Part shown: positions 52,541-62,139 of the stretch, in pieces
How the letters are laid out: each line of letters begins with the position of its first letter
How positions within the stretch are numbered: position 1 is the first letter of the stretch
Assembly: GCF_000327485.1 (NCBI RefSeq)
Contig: NC_019943.1
Span: 1,612,001-1,676,000 of the forward strand
DNA length: 64,000 nt
Origin: Methanoregula formicica SMSP
GTDB taxonomy: Archaea; Halobacteriota; Methanomicrobia; Methanomicrobiales; Methanospirillaceae
Reading direction: 5' to 3'
Notes under the pieces: generated by a model
What the model saw: only the letters and a program-made list of their open reading frames with translations
What the model was told of the DNA's origin: nothing
The model's database searches: none
Program-made: the position numbers and the translations under genes

Positions 52541-52645
52541 GGTAATGCATGCCCCGGCAAAACGGTTAAGGGTTACCCGCAAAAGGGAGCCGGGCTGCGA
52601 CAGGGCGACTTCCCGTTGTTAAAAAATAAGAGAGAATATGTCGCT

Positions 52646-53770: not shown

Positions 53771-55336
53771 TCAGAGAGCCAGCATCACACAGAGCATAAC
53801 ACCGATAGTGAGGGTGAGCGCAACCGCCACCGGGGCAACACGGCGGACAACCTCGCCCTCGATACCTATCTTGTCGATGACAGCAGCCGCGTTGATGATC
53901 TTTGCCACAGCAACACCGGAAGCAACTCCCCCGGCCGTTGCATGCGCCGCGTATACGGGCATGAAGTCAAGCGAGAGGACATTTGTCGATTTGTCGATAA
54001 TGCCGTAGAACATCACGTTCGAAGAGGCCTCGCTGCCGGAGATGAACGATCCAAAGAGTCCCAGCAGTGGGGAGATGAGCGGGAACCCAACACCAAACGT
54101 CAGGGCGAGCGTGAGTCCGATGACCGCGTTCATGTTCAAGGCGTCTGCACCGGGCAGGAACGAGAGGGTTCCGCCAACGACCGACCGGCCGGACCAGTCC
54201 ATAACATACGCAATGGCAAAGAAGACCATGGCAGCGAGTGTCGGGCTCCAGGCCCTTTTCACCCAGAGCGAGAGGATGTCCTTTGCCTCAGTACGGTTCC
54301 GGACAAGGAACGGGGCGGAGATGAGCGTACTTACAACCACCCAGAAGTAGGCCTGGTTGAGGAGCTTTAAGTCAATGACCTTGTCGGCAATGACCGGAAC
54401 CTTCTGCACGGGACCCAGTATAGCATAGAGCCCTGACTGGATGAGCGGGATGCTAATGATGACGGCAAACGAAACAAGGAGGATCCAGGGGAAAGCCGCC
54501 TTCCAGAGCGGCATACTGCCCTCCGGAAGGGGGATGGCCGGGGCAGCGTCTATCGGTTTTCCCCGCAGGGCCCGGAGGAGGAAGAGGACGATGATAGTCA
54601 CGAGTCCTGAGAAGACGCCCACGAGGCCGATGGCGGAGGCAGGAAGGATAGCTACAAAGAGGATAGCGGAGAAACCGAGCGTCAGGCCGGCAAGGAGTGC
54701 CGTGAAAAGCCCCTTCTTCACACCTTCAAATCCATCGGCAATCCAGAGCATGCCAAGCGCGATACCGGTAGAGATGACGGGAAGGAACAGTGCCACCTGG
54801 CAGCCAAGCGCTTTTGCGTCAAAACCAAAGGCAGCGGCGGGGATCGTGATGGGGACTGCAAGGAGCGAGAAGGAGGTGAGCGGGTCATACCCGAGGCAGG
54901 GCAGGGCAACAGCCGCAAGGGGGGAGAAGCCGAGCGCCATCATGATGGGCGGGAGCATCGTGACCGGCGTGGCACCAATCGAGACCAGGAACGACCCGAA
55001 TCCCACGTTCAGGATCATGATCTGCTCGTAGCGCTCGGCCGCGATTGATTTGACGTATGCGGTAATCCGGCTGATCGCCCCGGTCAAATCCATCATCGTT
55101 ACCTGGAGAATGGTGAAAAGGACCATGAGTGATATACCAAACGACGAGAGAATACCGGCCCAGGATGCTGCAAGCGCAACGGAGAGTGAGGTCTGGAAGA
55201 AGATCACGGCAATGACGACCGTCAGGAGCCAGCCCAGGATCGCCATCAGCGTACCCGATTGTTTCAGGAAGACGAGCCCGATGAAGATCAGGATAATGGG
55301 AAGGATGGCAAGAAGGAACAGGAAAGCAAGATCCAC
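53771..55336 (-). CDS. L-lactate/glycolate permease family transporter (LctP)
   Basis: 521 residues with about 12-14 membrane helices. LctP family blocks are ILQVTMMDLTGAISRI, GFGSFLVSIGATPVTML, LPCLGYDPLTSFSLLAVP, LLGLFGSFISGSEASSNVMFYG and HATAGGVASGVAVAK. It would carry lactate or a similar 2-hydroxy acid with protons. Lactate is not a usual methanogen substrate, so it may serve carbon assimilation. It diverges from the livK gene. The GSEASSN motif is strongly conserved in the family. Confidence 0.88.
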   Translation of the reverse strand: MDLAFLFLLAILPIILIFIGLVFLKQSGTLMAILGWLLTVVIAVIFFQTSLSVALAASWAGILSSFGISLMVLFTILQVTMMDLTGAISRITAYVKSIAAERYEQIMILNVGFGSFLVSIGATPVTMLPPIMMALGFSPLAAVALPCLGYDPLTSFSLLAVPITIPAAAFGFDAKALGCQVALFLPVISTGIALGMLWIADGFEGVKKGLFTALLAGLTLGFSAILFVAILPASAIGLVGVFSGLVTIIVLFLLRALRGKPIDAAPAIPLPEGSMPLWKAAFPWILLVSFAVIISIPLIQSGLYAILGPVQKVPVIADKVIDLKLLNQAYFWVVVSTLISAPFLVRNRTEAKDILSLWVKRAWSPTLAAMVFFAIAYVMDWSGRSVVGGTLSFLPGADALNMNAVIGLTLALTFGVGFPLISPLLGLFGSFISGSEASSNVMFYGIIDKSTNVLSLDFMPVYAAHATAGGVASGVAVAKIINAAAVIDKIGIEGEVVRRVAPVAVALTLTIGVMLCVMLAL

Positions 55337-55585
55337 AATGAACTACCCGGTGAGTCTGTCCTGAGCTGTTGGACAGGATCAAGGAAAACCATATCGTTTT
55401 GGTGCGGCACAACCGGAATCCGTTCAACGGAACATCATCGCCGCGTTTGGAAGGTATGATGTTCGATAACCCTGATTTGGATACCGTGCGCCCCCTTTCT
55501 TTGATACGACAAACATCCTGAGGTGCACCACCCCGGAGATAAACCGATAATTATTATTACGCCAGCGACCACCAATTCTTTGTCA

Positions 55586-55600
55586 TGCTATATCATAGCA
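55586..55600. promoter_or_regulatory. Inverted repeat before livK
   Basis: TGCTAT-ATC-ATAGCA is a perfect six-base inverted repeat 20 bases before the livK ATG. It may be an operator (its CATGCTA/TAGCAT core recalls the 22-bp sites near 60430 and 60500) or part of a promoter. GGGAG follows directly upstream of the ATG. Confidence 0.4.
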
Positions 55601-55619: not shown

Positions 55620-56954
55620 ATGAAATATTCTGTTCTCATTATTGCGGCCCTGCTAATCGCGGCCGCATGCATTGCCGGTTGTACACAGCAGCAGGCATCA
55701 ACACAGTCCTCGCCCGCTGCATCGCAGGACACGATTAAGATCGGCGTCATCGCATCTCTGACCGGGCCTGCAAGCAATGTCGGCACCAACATGTGGCAGT
55801 CGGCGCAGGTTGCTGCTGAAAAAATCAATGCTGCGGGCGGGGTTACAGTAAAAGACGGCGCAAAAAAACAGGTAAAGCTGATTGTGGGAGACGATGAATC
55901 AACCCAGGCCGGCGGCCAGAAGGCTGCAACCAAACTCATTACCGATGACAAAGTCGACATTCTTGTCGGGGGATACTCGAGCGCCGTGACCTCGGCGTAC
56001 GAACAGACCATTGCCGAGTACAAGGTGCCGTATATCGTGACAGGCGCATCAAGCCCGATCATCACGCACCGGACCGACATCGACACGAGCTATGTCTTCC
56101 ACCACTGCCCGACTACCGACACCTACGGGGAATACACGACAACATTCATCGATGAGGTCGTCCGGGCGGCCGTGAACAAGAAACTCGGCACTGCATCCGA
56201 CCGGCCGTTCCGGCTTGCGGTCCTGTACCAGGACACCGCGTTTGGCAAAGGTGTCCAGACTGCGGTAAACAATACCATCACAAAGAAGAACCTCAACATC
56301 GTGCTCGTCTCCCAGCAGAGTTTCAAGATGGGCGAGAGCGACTTCCGCACCCAGCTGACCGCGATCAAGGCGGCAAAGCCGGACGCAGTCTATATCGCGG
56401 CGTTCCCGAACGAGGGCGCCCCGGCCATTGTGCAGGCCCGGCGGGACATCAGCCTGAACACCATCTTCCTTAATGTCGAAAACAATGACAATGCCCAGTT
56501 CTACAAGGACGTCGGGCAGTACGGCGAGTATGGCGTGATCGAAAGCCGGTTCTCGCCCTACACCGCACCTGCGGGGGCTGTTGCAACGGCACAGGACGGG
56601 TTCAAGCAGGCGTACTACAAGAAGTTCGGGACCTACCCGGACATGATGGGTGCGTCCACGTATGAAGGGGTGTTCATCGCTGCGGAGGCAATCAAATCCG
56701 CGGGAAGTACCGACAAGACCGCAGTCCGGCAGGCACTCACGACCCTGAAGATGCCGCAGGTCATTGAAGCAATGAAGGACTCGACCATCTCGTTCTCGTC
56801 TGACTTCCGCGAATCCTCGTTCGACCTCTGGATGGAGCAGCTCTATATGGATGCAGCGGCCGGTGAAACGCGGCCGAAGATCGTCTGGCCCGACAACCTG
56901 AAGACAACGGAGTTTGTCCTGCCGTCCTGGTACGAAGCGGGAAGCAGCGTATAA
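55620..56954 (+). CDS. livK: Branched-chain amino-acid-type ABC transporter, substrate-binding lipoprotein
   Basis: 444 residues. The lipoprotein signal ends in ACIAGC (Cys about 21). The periplasmic-binding fold type I follows: IKIGVIASLTGPASNVG, VDILVGGYSSAVTSA, FRLAVLYQDTAFGKG, LVSQQSFKMGESDFRTQLTAI. It captures amino acids or related solutes outside the membrane and delivers them to LivH/LivM. Ligand not determinable; similar proteins also bind urea, amides or aromatic acids. GGGAG is four bases before the ATG. First of livK-H-M. Confidence 0.9.
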   Translation: MKYSVLIIAALLIAAACIAGCTQQQASTQSSPAASQDTIKIGVIASLTGPASNVGTNMWQSAQVAAEKINAAGGVTVKDGAKKQVKLIVGDDESTQAGGQKAATKLITDDKVDILVGGYSSAVTSAYEQTIAEYKVPYIVTGASSPIITHRTDIDTSYVFHHCPTTDTYGEYTTTFIDEVVRAAVNKKLGTASDRPFRLAVLYQDTAFGKGVQTAVNNTITKKNLNIVLVSQQSFKMGESDFRTQLTAIKAAKPDAVYIAAFPNEGAPAIVQARRDISLNTIFLNVENNDNAQFYKDVGQYGEYGVIESRFSPYTAPAGAVATAQDGFKQAYYKKFGTYPDMMGASTYEGVFIAAEAIKSAGSTDKTAVRQALTTLKMPQVIEAMKDSTISFSSDFRESSFDLWMEQLYMDAAAGETRPKIVWPDNLKTTEFVLPSWYEAGSSV

Positions 56955-57024: not shown

Positions 57025-57903
57025 ATGGACGAGATCTCCATCATCCTCCAGATCCTTTTCTGGGGACTCTATGCCGGGTGTATCTATATCCTGCTTGCCA
57101 CGGGGCTGAACCTGATCTTCGGCGTCATGAAGGTCGTCAACTTTGCGCATGGCGAGTTCCTGATGGTGGGCGCATACATCACCTTCACCGTCTTCCTTTT
57201 AACCGGCTTCAACCCATATGTCATCCTCCTCCTCTCGATGCTCGCGCTTGTCGGAATTGGCGCCGTGGTCGAACGGCTCTGCTTCCGCCCCATTCTCGGG
57301 ACCGGCAAACTCAACGAGATCTTCCTCTCCATCGGCCTCATCTACATCTTCCAGAACGGGGCCGCCATGATCTGGGGGGATGCGTGGCAGAGCGTCAAGA
57401 GCCCGTATGACGGTATTACGGTACCAGTCGGCCCGTTGTCCGTTCCGCTTGATTATATCATTATCATGGTCGTGACAGCTCTGGTCCTCTGCGGGCTGTA
57501 CCTCTTTTTGAAAAAGACGACCATTGGCATGCAGATGCGGGCAACGAGCCAGAACCGGAAGGGCGCAATGCTGGTCGGTATCGATGTGGAACGGATCGAT
57601 GTCATCAGTTTCGGCCTCGGCTGTGCGCTTGCGGCGGCGGCTGGAACACTCTGGGTGGTGAGCGGGCAGGTCTTCAACCCGTACATGGGCGCGATCCCCG
57701 CAGTCAAGGCCTTTGCCATCATCATCCTTGGCGGCCTCGGGAGTATCCCCGGGGCCATCATCGGGGGACTCCTGATGGGCCTTGCCGAGAACGGCGCCGC
57801 ATTCCTGCTGGGGGGGATCTGGAAAGACGCGGTCTCGTTCATCGTCCTGATCGTTGTTCTTGCAATACGGCCGACCGGGCTCTTTGGCGGGAAGGAGGGG
57901 TGA
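57025..57903 (+). CDS. livH: Branched-chain amino-acid-type ABC permease LivH
   Basis: 292 residues with about eight membrane helices. Conserved motifs are GLNLIFGVMKVVNFAHGEFLMVG at the N-terminal part (core VNFAHGEF) and RATSQNRKGAMLVGIDVERI, plus the coupling AFAIIILGGLGSIPGAIIGG. It pairs with LivM to form the channel. It lies 70 bases after livK and ends two bases before the livM ATG. Confidence 0.93.
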   Translation: MDEISIILQILFWGLYAGCIYILLATGLNLIFGVMKVVNFAHGEFLMVGAYITFTVFLLTGFNPYVILLLSMLALVGIGAVVERLCFRPILGTGKLNEIFLSIGLIYIFQNGAAMIWGDAWQSVKSPYDGITVPVGPLSVPLDYIIIMVVTALVLCGLYLFLKKTTIGMQMRATSQNRKGAMLVGIDVERIDVISFGLGCALAAAAGTLWVVSGQVFNPYMGAIPAVKAFAIIILGGLGSIPGAIIGGLLMGLAENGAAFLLGGIWKDAVSFIVLIVVLAIRPTGLFGGKEG

Positions 57904-57905
57904 AG

Positions 57906-58895
57906 ATGCTGACGAATATTTCGCCGTCGCTCCGGTACGTGACTGCCCTTGCGCTCATCGCCGCATTAACGCTCCCCTTCCTCACCGACAACATGTTTGT
58001 CGTGAACCTTGCCGTCCTGATGATGATCGCCATCATCTTCGCTTCGGCCTGGAACCTTCTCGCCTGCTCGGGCCAAGGGTCACTGGGCCACGCAGCGTTC
58101 TTTGGCATCGGGGCGTACGCATCCACTCTGGTTGCTGTGACGCTCGGGATCACACCGTTCATTACCATCTTCATGGGGGCAGGAGTGGCTGCAGTCATCG
58201 GGATCCTCATCGGCCTTACCTGCGTGCGACTGAAGGAGTGGTTCCTTGCCATGGTCACATTCGGGTTCGCCATCATCGTCCAGACGCTCGTGGTCAGTGT
58301 GCTTGCGCCCATGACCGGAGGATGGGACGGGATACCTTCGCCCCGGCTTGTCAGCCCTGCCATTCCGGGCTACCAGCTGATCGAATACTATGCCATCCTC
58401 CTCATCACCATCGCGACCATCATCGCCATCTGGTATATTATGCGCTCGAAGGCCGGTCTCGCGTTCCTCGCGATCCGCGAGAACGAGACTGAGGCGCGGG
58501 CTGCCGGGATCAACCCGGTCCGGTACCGGCTCATTGCGTTTGCTATCTCCGCGTTCATCGCGGGGATCGCCGGGGCGCTCCAGATCCACCATATCGGGTA
58601 CATCACGCCAGAGTTATTCGGTGTCGACAACTCGTTCTGGCCAATCACCTATGTCATTCTCGGCGGACTGGGCACCATCGCAGGCCCTGTTATCGGCACA
58701 GTCGTGCTGACGGTCATCTGGGAAGGGCTCAAAGAGACTGGCATGACCTTTGCCCGGTATGTCATCATCGGCATCATCCTCATCCTGACGATCATCTTCC
58801 TGCCAAAAGGGCTCGTCAGCCTGCCGGAACATCTTAAAGAATGGAAAGCACGGAAGAACGGAAAAACGGAAATACTTCCTTCGACTGGAAAATAA
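57906..58895 (+). CDS. livM: Branched-chain amino-acid-type ABC permease LivM
   Basis: 329 residues with about nine membrane helices. It has SAWNLLACSGQGSLGHAAFFG, LAFLAIRENETEARAAGIN and YVILGGLGTIAGPVIGTV, all LivM hallmarks. Start: ATG at 57906 with GGAGGGG five bases upstream, preferred over GTG at 57900, which would sit too close to that site. The C-terminus is Lys-rich. It converges with livF. Confidence 0.93.
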   Translation: MLTNISPSLRYVTALALIAALTLPFLTDNMFVVNLAVLMMIAIIFASAWNLLACSGQGSLGHAAFFGIGAYASTLVAVTLGITPFITIFMGAGVAAVIGILIGLTCVRLKEWFLAMVTFGFAIIVQTLVVSVLAPMTGGWDGIPSPRLVSPAIPGYQLIEYYAILLITIATIIAIWYIMRSKAGLAFLAIRENETEARAAGINPVRYRLIAFAISAFIAGIAGALQIHHIGYITPELFGVDNSFWPITYVILGGLGTIAGPVIGTVVLTVIWEGLKETGMTFARYVIIGIILILTIIFLPKGLVSLPEHLKEWKARKNGKTEILPSTGK

Positions 58896-58964: not shown

Positions 58965-59660
58965 TCAAATCCCCAGGTACGCTTTCTGGATCCGGGGGTC
59001 GTTGAGAAGCATTTTAGACTTCCCCTCTTCAACGATCCGGCCATTCTCGAGAACATAGCCCCGTTCGCACATGGCAAGGGCATTCCGGACATTCTGCTCT
59101 AAGAGGAGGACGGTCATGCCCTCGCGGCCAAGGTGTTCTAACGCACGGAAAACCTGGCCGGTCAGGAGCGGAGAGAGGCCGGTGGAAGGCTCATCAAGGA
59201 TCAGGAGCCGGGGCTCTGACATGAGCGCCCGGCCGATAGCAAGCATCTGCTGTTCACCGCCGGAGAGCGTCCCTGCCTCCTGGCGCTCCCGTTCCCGGAG
59301 GACCGGAAAGAGGCGGAATACGCGGTCAAGGGCTCCTTCCCGATGCGGATTCTGTGTCCCGCCCAGCAGGAGGTTTTCGATAACGGGCATGGACGGGAAG
59401 ATCTCGCGTTTCTCGGGAACGAGAGCGAGACCCCGGGTAAAGAGCTCATACGGCGGACGGCCAAGCACCTCCTGTCCGTCGAACACAACCGATCCGGTGG
59501 CCCGCTTGTTCAGGCCGGCAATGGTCTCGACCGTGGTCGTCTTGCCGGCGCCGTTGGGGCCGATCATGGTCACAAGCTCTCCCTTGTTGACATGGAACGA
59601 GAGGTCCCAGACTACCTGGAGATTACCGTGAAAGACATTAAGGTGGGAGACTGAGAGCAT
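58965..59660 (-). CDS. livF: Branched-chain amino-acid-type ABC transporter ATPase LivF
   Basis: 231 residues from the ATG at 59660, with Walker A GPNGAGKTT, signature TLSGGEQQMLAIGRALM and Walker B LLILDEPSTGLSP, the usual LivF set including LVPEKREIFPSMPVIENLL. It powers LivH/LivM together with LivG. The longer frame to 59696 overlaps livG and is not preferred. It follows livG by 16 bases on the minus strand. Confidence 0.93.
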   Translation of the reverse strand: MLSVSHLNVFHGNLQVVWDLSFHVNKGELVTMIGPNGAGKTTTVETIAGLNKRATGSVVFDGQEVLGRPPYELFTRGLALVPEKREIFPSMPVIENLLLGGTQNPHREGALDRVFRLFPVLRERERQEAGTLSGGEQQMLAIGRALMSEPRLLILDEPSTGLSPLLTGQVFRALEHLGREGMTVLLLEQNVRNALAMCERGYVLENGRIVEEGKSKMLLNDPRIQKAYLGI

Positions 59661-59676
59661 GGCAAAGAAAACCTTC

Positions 59677-60405
59677 TTAAAACGCGTCGATGTCACCGAG
59701 ATAGGTGTCGATGACCCGCTGGTTGTTCACTACGTCATGCGGGAAGCCGTCAGCAATCTTCTCGCCATGGTCGAGGACAACAATACGGTTCGAGACTCCC
59801 ATGATGACGCTCATGACATGCTCGATGATCAAAATTGAGGTCCCGCCATCCCGGATCTTCCGGATCAGGTCCACAGCCTCGCTGCTCTCTTTCGGGTTGA
59901 GCCCGGTGGTGAGCTCGTCTAAGAGGAGGAGTTTTGGGTGGCTCGCAAGTGCCCGGGCAAGCTGGAGACGCTTGAGCTCGACAACATTGAGGTTTCGCGT
60001 CAGGGTGCCGGCTTTCTCCCCCGGGAAATTAACAAAGGAAAGGATCTCTAGGGCCTCAGCCCGGGCATCCCTCATGTCTGGAGACCGGGTGTTCCCGAAC
60101 AGGACGCCGATCATCACGCACTGCTCTGCGCTCAGGTTCGGGAATGATTCGGCGATCTGGAACGTCTTGGAAATACCTCTGCGGCAGATCCGGTCAGCGC
60201 TCATGCCTGTGATATCTTCGTTGAGGAACGTGACTTTCCCCCCTGTTGGGGAGAGCATCCCGGAGATGATATTCAGGAGCGTTGTCTTGCCGGCCCCGTT
60301 CGGCCCCACGAGCCCGATGATCTGGCCGGTGCTCATCGTGAGATCGACATTGTTCACTGCAGTAAGGCCGCCGATCTGCTTGGTGACACCGGAAAGAGAG
60401 AGCAT
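59677..60405 (-). CDS. livG: Branched-chain amino-acid-type ABC transporter ATPase LivG
   Basis: 242 residues with Walker A GPNGAGKTTLLNI and the LivG insert GISKTFQIAESFPNLSAEQ. The signature helix reads TLTRNLNVVELKRLQLARAL where LSxGxxRR is expected, so the Ser-Gly of the signature is missing; the Walker B LLLLDELTTGLNP has Leu in place of the Pro seen in DEPT. Archaeal LivG members often vary here, but both changes sit in the ATP site. It heads the livG-livF pair, divergent from the symporter. Confidence 0.9.
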   Translation of the reverse strand: MLSLSGVTKQIGGLTAVNNVDLTMSTGQIIGLVGPNGAGKTTLLNIISGMLSPTGGKVTFLNEDITGMSADRICRRGISKTFQIAESFPNLSAEQCVMIGVLFGNTRSPDMRDARAEALEILSFVNFPGEKAGTLTRNLNVVELKRLQLARALASHPKLLLLDELTTGLNPKESSEAVDLIRKIRDGGTSILIIEHVMSVIMGVSNRIVVLDHGEKIADGFPHDVVNNQRVIDTYLGDIDAF

Positions 60406-60428
60406 GGACGATCACGGAGCCGGAAATA

Positions 60429-60450
60429 TGTCATATGTTATCATGGAGCA
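60429..60450. promoter_or_regulatory. 22-bp site 1 of a repeated pair
   Basis: Core TCATATGTTATCATGG; 18 of 22 bases match site 2 (60493-60514). It lies 24-45 bases before the livG ATG, next to a minus-strand TATA-like element (TTTTATTATG near 60451-60460), where a bound repressor would overlap the livG transcription start. Confidence 0.55.
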
Positions 60451-60492
60451 TAATAAAAGATACCCGTGCACCATACCGAACCATTTCGAATT

Positions 60493-60514
60493 TGTTATAT
60501 GTTAGCATGCTGCA
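60493..60514. promoter_or_regulatory. 22-bp site 2 of a repeated pair
   Basis: Core TTATATGTTAGCATGC; starts 64 bases after site 1 in the same orientation. It overlaps the likely TATA (TTGTTATATG, 60492-60501) of the symporter operon, about 30 bases before the small membrane peptide gene. Confidence 0.55.
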
Positions 60515-60529
60515 ACCTAACACGGTACA

Positions 60530-60637
60530 ATGTTTGGGTTACCGGATTTGACTGTCATTATCGTTGGCGGGGTTGTGCTCGTCATCATTGCTGCATTGCT
60601 GTACTGGGGACTCACCTTTAAGGAGAACGCATCATGA
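60530..60637 (+). CDS. Symporter small accessory protein, single membrane helix
   Basis: 35 residues: MFGLPDLTVIIVGGVVLVII then AALLYWGLTFKENAS. One membrane helix (about 7-27) is followed by YWGLTFKE, the look of the small accessory peptides that precede sodium:solute symporter genes. Its TGA overlaps the symporter ATG (ATGA), so the two are coupled. It is too short for most gene finders. It probably binds or stabilises the symporter. Confidence 0.75.
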   Translation: MFGLPDLTVIIVGGVVLVIIAALLYWGLTFKENAS

Positions 60638-62139
60638 GCGATATTGTGACCGTTGTCCTTGTGGCAATCTATTTCCTCGCCATGGTGGGGATCGGGGTCT
60701 GGGCCTCAAAGAAGATCCACAACATGGAAGACTATGTTGTTGCGGGAAGGTCTCTCGGCTTCTGGGTCTTCACCCTTCTCATGATCGGGTCGGTCTGCTC
60801 GGGCATGTCACTTCTCGGTGTCTCAGGACTGGGATTCAAGTTCGCCTGGCCCACCATCTGGGAGCAGATCGCGGTTCCGCTCTCCATCGCGTTCTGTATC
60901 ATCTTCTTCGGTGTCAAGATGTACGCGGTGGCAAAGAAGTCCGGTTACATGACCGTGCAGGACTACCTCGCCCACCGGTTCGAGAGCAATACGGCGCTCC
61001 GCGGACTTTCCGCCGTGTCGGGCATTGTCGTCTCCATGATCTACCTGGCCGGCCAGTACACCGCAGTCAGCATCGTGCTGATGTGGCTTTTCAAGATCCC
61101 GCATCTCTGGGCACTCCTGATCGGTGCGGCCATTGTCACAATCTACACGGTCATCGGCGGGTTGTACGCGGTGTCATGGACTACGCTCGTCCAGGGCGTC
61201 ATCCTCATAGCTGGCGTCCTCATCATGGCCCCCTTCGTCATTATGGCGGCCGGGGGGTTCACGCATGTCAATGAAGTGATGGCATCCATCAACCCCTCAA
61301 ACGTAGATCCCTGGGTTGCCGGAGGCGTTTTCTGCCCTGAGTATGTCGTGTCGTTCTTCCTCCTCCTCACTATTGGCCTTGCCTGCGCCCCACACGTGAT
61401 CAACAACGTGCTGGCGGTAAAAGACATCTCGTACTTCAAGTGGGCCCCGCTCATCGCGTTTGTCGTGTACGGCATCGTGATGTTCCTCCTGAAGTTTGCC
61501 GGGTTTGCCGGGATGTCCATGGTCAAGGAAGGCCTCATTGTCCTGCCGGATGTGAAGAATGCATCAGACTACATCTTCGTTGCCGGAATCGAGTACGCGC
61601 TCCCGAGCGTCCTCCTCTGGGGCATTCTCGGTGTCATCATTCTTGCTGCGGTCATGTCCACGACCGATCGCCTGATGCTCACCATCGGCACGTACTTCTC
61701 GTGGGACATCTACAAGATGATCTTAAAACCCGATGCACCGGACAAGCAGGTGCTCCTCGTCAGCCAGCTCTCGGTCCTGGGCGCCGCTGTCCTCACACTC
61801 CTGATGGCCATCAGCCCGCCGGACATGCTCGTCTGGCTCATCTGGGCCGGCATCGGGATCATGTTTGCCACCTTCGCTGTTCCCCTTCTTGCCGGGCTGT
61901 ACTGGCGGGGTGCAACCCGCGAGGGCGCCCTTGCGTCAATGGCGCTTGGCCTGATCGCCGCCCTCTTTTTCGGTGGCCTGAGCTACTTCAAAATCAAACT
62001 CTTTGCAATGCCTATGCACTTCTCGTTCTACGCCTTTGCCATCTCGCTCATTGCGATGATCGTTGTCAGCATGGTGACAAAGAAGACCTCGGAGAAGGTA
62101 CTGGACGAGACCATGACCGGCTGGTATATCCGGCGATAA
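60634..62139 (+). CDS. Sodium:solute symporter (SSS family)
   Basis: 501 residues with about 13 membrane helices. SSS features are KIHNMEDYVVAGRSLGFW at the N-terminus, VQDYLAHRFESN, GGLYAVSWTTLVQGVILI and VMSTTDRLMLTIGTYFSWDIY (Ser/Thr of the Na2 site). Substrate is not clear; acetate, pyruvate, proline or pantothenate are typical for the family. It is coupled to the 35-residue gene upstream and shares the repeated-site promoter region with livG. A seven-T tract follows the stop. Confidence 0.92.
   Translation: MSDIVTVVLVAIYFLAMVGIGVWASKKIHNMEDYVVAGRSLGFWVFTLLMIGSVCSGMSLLGVSGLGFKFAWPTIWEQIAVPLSIAFCIIFFGVKMYAVAKKSGYMTVQDYLAHRFESNTALRGLSAVSGIVVSMIYLAGQYTAVSIVLMWLFKIPHLWALLIGAAIVTIYTVIGGLYAVSWTTLVQGVILIAGVLIMAPFVIMAAGGFTHVNEVMASINPSNVDPWVAGGVFCPEYVVSFFLLLTIGLACAPHVINNVLAVKDISYFKWAPLIAFVVYGIVMFLLKFAGFAGMSMVKEGLIVLPDVKNASDYIFVAGIEYALPSVLLWGILGVIILAAVMSTTDRLMLTIGTYFSWDIYKMILKPDAPDKQVLLVSQLSVLGAAVLTLLMAISPPDMLVWLIWAGIGIMFATFAVPLLAGLYWRGATREGALASMALGLIAALFFGGLSYFKIKLFAMPMHFSFYAFAISLIAMIVVSMVTKKTSEKVLDETMTGWYIRR

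Follow-up and report, generated by a model that had tools for sequence, protein, structure and literature searches.

The window, i.e. the whole analysed stretch of 64,000 nucleotides, belongs to an archaeal chromosome of 2,820,858 bp, and its LivK protein has its closest named relatives in Methanoregula genomes. An lctP gene on the minus strand precedes livK-livH-livM on the plus strand, livF and livG on the minus strand with livG first, and a 35-aa open reading frame together with an SSS symporter gene on the plus strand. Genes, palindromic sites (dyads) and promoter-like stretches are listed below; operator assignments are predictions, and TATA- or BRE-like stretches were recognised by eye.

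53771-55336, minus strand: lctP-type permease, divergent from livK (PF02652, 159 bits, cutoff 27)
55547-55559, plus strand: livK TATA-like stretch, ATAATTATTATTA
55581-55600, plus strand: predicted 20-bp livKHM operator, TGTCA-TGCTA-TATCA-TAGCA, with the core dyad at 55586-55600
55620-56954, plus strand: livK, substrate-binding protein (PF13458, 179 bits)
57025-57903, plus strand: livH, permease (below the curated cutoffs of named models)
57900-58895, plus strand: livM, permease (below curated cutoffs)
58965-59696, minus strand: livF, ATPase (best model LivF, below cutoff)
59677-60405, minus strand: livG, ATPase (best model LivG, below cutoff)
60429-60443, plus strand: weaker dyad that overlaps the next one, TGTCAT-ATG-TTATCA, in the left part of site 1 and shared with G165, a close relative
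60436-60450, minus strand: predicted livG operator dyad, TGCTCC-ATG-ATAACA in minus-strand reading, right part of site 1
60451-60460, minus strand: livG TATA-like stretch, TCTTTTATTA in minus-strand reading
60484-60500, plus strand: symporter BRE/TATA-like stretch, TTTCGA and TTATAT
60493-60507, plus strand: predicted symporter operator dyad (site 2), TGTTAT-ATG-TTAGCA, overlapping TTATAT at 60495-60500
60508-60522, plus strand: weak second symporter dyad, TGCTG-N5-TAACA, abutting the first 15 bp further on (9/12 positions)
60530-60637, plus strand: 35-aa hydrophobic open reading frame, overlapping the symporter start by ATGA
60634-62139, plus strand: SSS-type sodium/solute symporter (PF00474, 196 bits)

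The 35-aa frame adjoins the symporter gene also in five other loci (L382, L384, L385, L387 and L399), with identities ranging from 61 to 97 %. A profile search yielded no Pfam or NCBIfam match for it; the peptide is perhaps a small subunit of the symporter, and its mRNA may be nearly leaderless. The PDB relatives of LivK comprised general Leu/Ile/Val, urea and other receptors, and no substrate was called from them.

Two 22-bp copies lie between livG and the symporter operon, at 60429-60450 (TGTCATATGTTATCATGGAGCA) and at 60493-60514 (TGTTATATGTTAGCATGCTGCA). They are identical in 18 of 22 positions at an offset of 64 bp, as the original prediction had described them. Eighteen matches were also the maximum for any ungapped pair of 22-mers in 60406-60529, and 300 dinucleotide shuffles yielded at most 16. 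An automatic repeat search had no entry for this pair; the longest exact run common to both copies has 8 bases (ATATGTTA), and the search required a seed of 9. The inverted repeat upstream of livK was confirmed at 55586-55600 (TGCTATATCATAGCA). Read as TGCTAT-ATC-ATAGCA, it can be set beside site 2, TGTTAT-ATG-TTAGCA; site 1 resolves into two overlapping weaker dyads beginning at 60429 and 60436, of which the right one (60436-60450) is the livG dyad kept by relatives. The conserved unit is the 15-bp dyad TGYTAW-N3-WTARCA and not the whole 22-mer.

A weight matrix was built from the sites of other genomes, one of which is closely related and identical in its livK and symporter sites. With this matrix, six of the nine top scores of the window fell into the two intergenic regions of the cluster (55586, 60493, 55581, 60436, 60429 and 60508), and the livK repeat was the best copy in the window. 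The score of site 2 was reached by none of 1000 shuffles of the livG-symporter intergenic region, that of 60429-60443 by 40; site 1 by itself is weak. Allowing at most one mismatch, TGYTAWNNNWTARCA matched three times in the window against 0.45 expected, and one of 100 shuffles had equally many matches. A site-like stretch at 52617-52631 was absent from the two relatives examined and is attributed to chance.

Conservation and distribution of the dyad

Thirty livK loci of Methanoregula with named records were compared, a set independent of the table of 84 sites described below, with some genomes common to both. An exact dyad within 100 bp upstream was present in 27 of the 30 loci (shuffle expectation 0.005), and at least 11 of 12 positions were kept in 29 (shuffle expectation 0.135). 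The thirtieth locus reached 11/12 after correction of its start codon, so that all 30 livK loci carry the dyad, and the livK repeat can be accepted as the third member of the group that it was suspected to be. At the symporter, a dyad of at least 10/12 positions was found 140-145 bp upstream in all 15 other same-genus loci examined; a symporter match had been obtained in 17 such genomes, of which G006 and G122 were left out. The second, abutting symporter dyad reached at least 10/12 in eight of these 15 loci and 9/12 in this genome. Within the family, 12 of 30 symporter loci including this genome had a dyad of at least 10/12 at 139-147 bp upstream, identical in eight, and 18 of 30 stayed below 10/12 at the usual place. 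Several symporter orthologues without the dyad retain a TCGA-N5-8-TTAT stretch. For livG, a dyad of at least 10/12 was located 26-53 bp upstream in 17 of 26 loci and was missing in nine.

With this conservation at livK, symporter and livG, a chance origin of the 22-bp similarity or its derivation from common promoter composition is hardly conceivable. The score of site 1 alone lies within reach of shuffled sequence, as given above, but an 18/22 match was never obtained from the 300 shuffles, and conservation contradicts the chance reading.

The table of 84 sites, which covers clustered loci only and in some rows has start codons called too far upstream, assigns 42 sites to livK, 14 to paaK, three to the symporter, two to lctP and 23 to other genes, the latter mostly without a recurring gene downstream. 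Loci L300 and L301 do not enter the comparisons. Copies exist near further transport genes, namely before lctP, and also before paaK. Of the two outcomes named beforehand as refuting the original prediction, a repeat not conserved among relatives and a lack of additional copies at transport genes, neither occurred. In most livK loci of the table an AT-rich stretch occupies the place of the livK TATA-like stretch. The paaK dyad was present in six of six same-genus genomes. It was missing from all 13 loci that represent other genera of the family, although one of them, G114, carries a dyad at the more distant position -118, and from all 11 loci of f5. Relatives have sites at lctP in L062, L067 and L201, and where lctP and symporter genes diverge, the site of the symporter is common to lctP in four of five loci. 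Within the window, no separate site belongs to lctP.

Sites were also found upstream of two paired DhnA-type aldolase genes in G025, G189 and G204. The aldolase-type protein of L203 is an ADTH synthase according to TIGR01949 (347 bits, cutoff 299); the other proteins were named by eye. This link, from three genomes, falls behind the livK and paaK links in strength, because the gap to the gene amounts to about 170-225 bp and a TATA-like stretch follows the site in L203. In L202 and L203 (genus g21) the ADTH synthase pair and its site adjoin an MBF1-like gene, recognised by eye. Other neighbours were noted at the paaK operator. A Cas1 gene is divergent from the paaK operon on the far side of the operator (L071 3385-4494, L136 4189-5127) in a cluster of 11 loci, the L136 protein matching PF01867 with 172 bits, and in family f2 (L111, L143, L147) genes of a polar-amino-acid type ABC transporter adjoin the operator.

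Genome-wide counts gave a modest enrichment, and it is the promoter positions that carry the case. The strict pattern TGYTATNNNATARCA had three exact matches in this genome versus one for the reversed control; with two mismatches allowed there was no excess in this genome (183 versus 228 reversed). Summed over 19 same-genus genomes, the exact pattern occurred at 24 places versus five reversed, and over 12 other genomes at four versus two. In a survey of the class (159 genomes, completeness at least 85 %), 67 genomes had an exact match: 49 of 70 in family f1, 9 of 20 in f2, 2 of 5 in f3, 5 of 21 in f6, 1 of 32 in f5 and 1 of 11 in f4. Family f1 had 66 places versus 28 in the control, f2 nine versus five. 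A further exact dyad of this genome, L002 1501-1515 (G000:C1:275926-275940), is situated 64 bp from a DEAD-box helicase gene and 325 bp from a second SSF symporter gene; it may be a chance occurrence or a further member of the regulon.

Operator architecture and promoter placement

The half-site is TGYTA, and in the dyad TGYTA-N5-TARCA the half-sites are 10 bp apart, a spacing that allows a dimer to contact the DNA from a single side. Among 40 distinct livK sites the five bases 5' of the core were kept as well (T in 35, G in 36, Y in 31, Y in 40 and A in 35), which gives the extended livK operator TGYYA-TGYTA-TANCA-TARCA. Its ideal form, TGCTATGCTATAGCATAGCA, is a perfect 20-bp palindrome and stands before livK in L107 and L206. 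The dyads are often doubled, with an offset of 5 bp at livK and paaK, up to a perfect (TGCTA)2(TAGCA)2, and of 15 bp at the symporter. These offsets correspond to half a turn and one and a half turns, and thus two dimers could occupy opposite faces of the DNA. Dyads that overlap with a displacement of roughly half a turn resemble the operators of the DtxR/IdeR and QacR type, where two dimers bind on opposite faces in response to metals or drugs; the likeness here is one of site geometry. Zur/Fur boxes have the form TGTTATANTATAACA with A/T at the centre; the outer 12 positions of the dyad resemble them, but centres such as AGC, ACC and ATC occur.

By eye, the symporter dyad lies over the TATA-like TTATAT, as had been proposed for site 2, and the livG dyad between the TATA-like box and the presumed transcription start. 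At livK and paaK the dyads coincide with the presumed start or follow it closely. Archaeal operators at such promoter places fit repression. Because the dyads cover the TATA box, separate it from the start or follow the start directly, a protein bound to them is likely to act as a repressor.

For livK and paaK, a dyad within the presumed leader could also be read as an mRNA hairpin near the ribosome-binding site, as the palindrome could form a 6-bp stem. In seven of 14 paaK sites, however, the third pair would be a C-A mismatch in the sense strand and break the stem, which speaks for DNA binding. The symporter dyad, moreover, overlaps the TATA box and thereby lies in front of the presumed start, and its sixth pair would be T-T. 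The stem mismatches at paaK and the position of the symporter site led us to reject the RNA hairpin as highly unlikely.

The two sites might further form a fixed pair that loops the divergent promoters, as 64 bp correspond to about six turns. The same offset is found in L384, and the best dyads are 56-57 bp apart both here and in L382. In L385, L387, L391 and L399, on the other hand, the distance amounts to 119-150 bp. A fixed looping pair is very unlikely and was rejected on this variable spacing. Since the livG-to-symporter distance varies among species from 56 to 150 bp, each dyad belongs to its own promoter.

Proposed regulon and candidate regulators

The observed sites, their conservation and their promoter positions are probably explained by one regulon of Methanoregula and some relatives, in which the site pair would represent two operators under a common putative dimeric repressor. 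Binding of this repressor to the dyad of each promoter would block transcription of livKHM, of livGF and of the small-ORF/symporter operon, and elsewhere in the genome of paaK-paaK-ACT; in some relatives lctP and ADTH synthase would be additional targets. Where dyads are doubled, a second dimer would bind on the opposite helix face. Of the originally predicted co-repression of the amino-acid importer and the symporter by one regulator, the co-regulation is thus supported by the conserved dyads, and the repression is suggested by promoter placement.

The signal would be related to aryl acids or to amino acids of the aromatic group. This theme of the regulon is derived from the PaaK-like ligases (below curated cutoffs), the double-ACT protein, a match to PF19571, and ADTH synthase. 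In Methanococcus maripaludis, aryl acids feed aromatic amino acid synthesis, as recounted in PMC4162585. We hold a role in aromatic metabolism at a little better than an even chance. Somewhat below even stands the wider proposal that a repressor, bound as two dimers to the opposite helix faces of (TGCTA)2(TAGCA)2-type operators, governs a previously undescribed aromatic or aryl-acid regulon. This would combine importers of three kinds (LIV-type ABC, SSS symporter, LctP permease) with the activation of arylacetate by PaaK and, in part of the species, with the entry reaction of aromatic synthesis. A literature search confined to one collection turned up no entry naming this operator.

In E. coli, one regulator, TyrR, controls aromatic biosynthesis and uptake genes. 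The present system differs in the domain of life, the protein and the site, and its aromatic theme is a presumptive one. Closer in phylogeny is Tar of Thermococcus kodakarensis, according to PMC6737238 an activator with a palindromic site, TGGACA-N8-TGTCCA, upstream of BRE/TATA, which is common to several aromatic amino acid operons. A shared palindrome is also what we observe; unlike that of Tar, it reads TGYTA-N5-TARCA and is placed over or after TATA.

A TrpY-family protein is encoded in this genome (L293 4692-5192; NF053754 TrpY_fam, 213 bits, cutoff 180), and as regulator it would sense tryptophan or another aromatic amino acid. This reading, which fits the aromatic gene set, is doubtful. 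The TRP box TGTACA differs from the dyads and occurs in none of them, and no dyad of at least 11 positions precedes the TrpY-family gene in L293. The protein was found in 100 of 100 genomes searched. Its N-terminal DRRVVD stretch did not vary among the 28 sequences compared, whether or not their genomes carry the motif; TrpY therefore gives no explanation for a motif of confined distribution. The model case is TrpY of Methanothermobacter thermautotrophicus, which according to PMC6737238 represses aromatic amino acid genes, the trp operon included. Its known targets are trp genes, unlike the importers and paaK found here.

Archaeal Lrp/AsnC regulators such as Ss-LrpB, Ptr2 and FL11 recognise short dyads of about 13-15 bp at amino-acid genes, and a regulator of the Lrp family had been suggested for the present sites. 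A single protein with an AsnC_trans_reg match was found in the genome (L196 1432-1926, minus strand). Its PDB relatives are archaeal Lrp proteins, an aminotransferase gene follows its gene, and an amino-acid-responsive protein of this kind could bind 15-bp dyads of the 6-3-6 type, similar in length to archaeal Lrp sites. Unlike in the known systems, however, this protein does not track the motif: all 80 genomes searched within the order have it, though the exact motif is nearly absent from f5 and f4. Its recognition-helix region, moreover, differs between species of the genus that have the same operator. These observations leave the Lrp suggestion unsupported, and we regard the assignment as unlikely. 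The strong variability of the recognition-helix region among close species, with the rest of the protein kept, is odd for a sequence-specific regulator.

As neither the Lrp/AsnC protein nor the one of the TrpY family was missing from any genome searched, with or without the motif, neither is singled out. For 127 cluster representatives near the sites, the N-terminal 70 residues were inspected by eye and no regulator was recognised; the likeliest regulator is a third, unlinked protein. With the operator as a single DNA bait, it could be fished out. Few archaeal regulons have been defined, and this one, from a methanogen genus that is in culture, would offer a clean operator, its places in the promoters and a small set of genes. 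It may also hint at what the LIV-type importer, the symporter and the LctP permease transport; their family names reveal little about the cargo. A search for ACT domains in six genomes, aimed at a regulator with such a domain, yielded the TrpY-family protein and an ACT protein whose neighbouring gene resembles homoserine dehydrogenase by eye.
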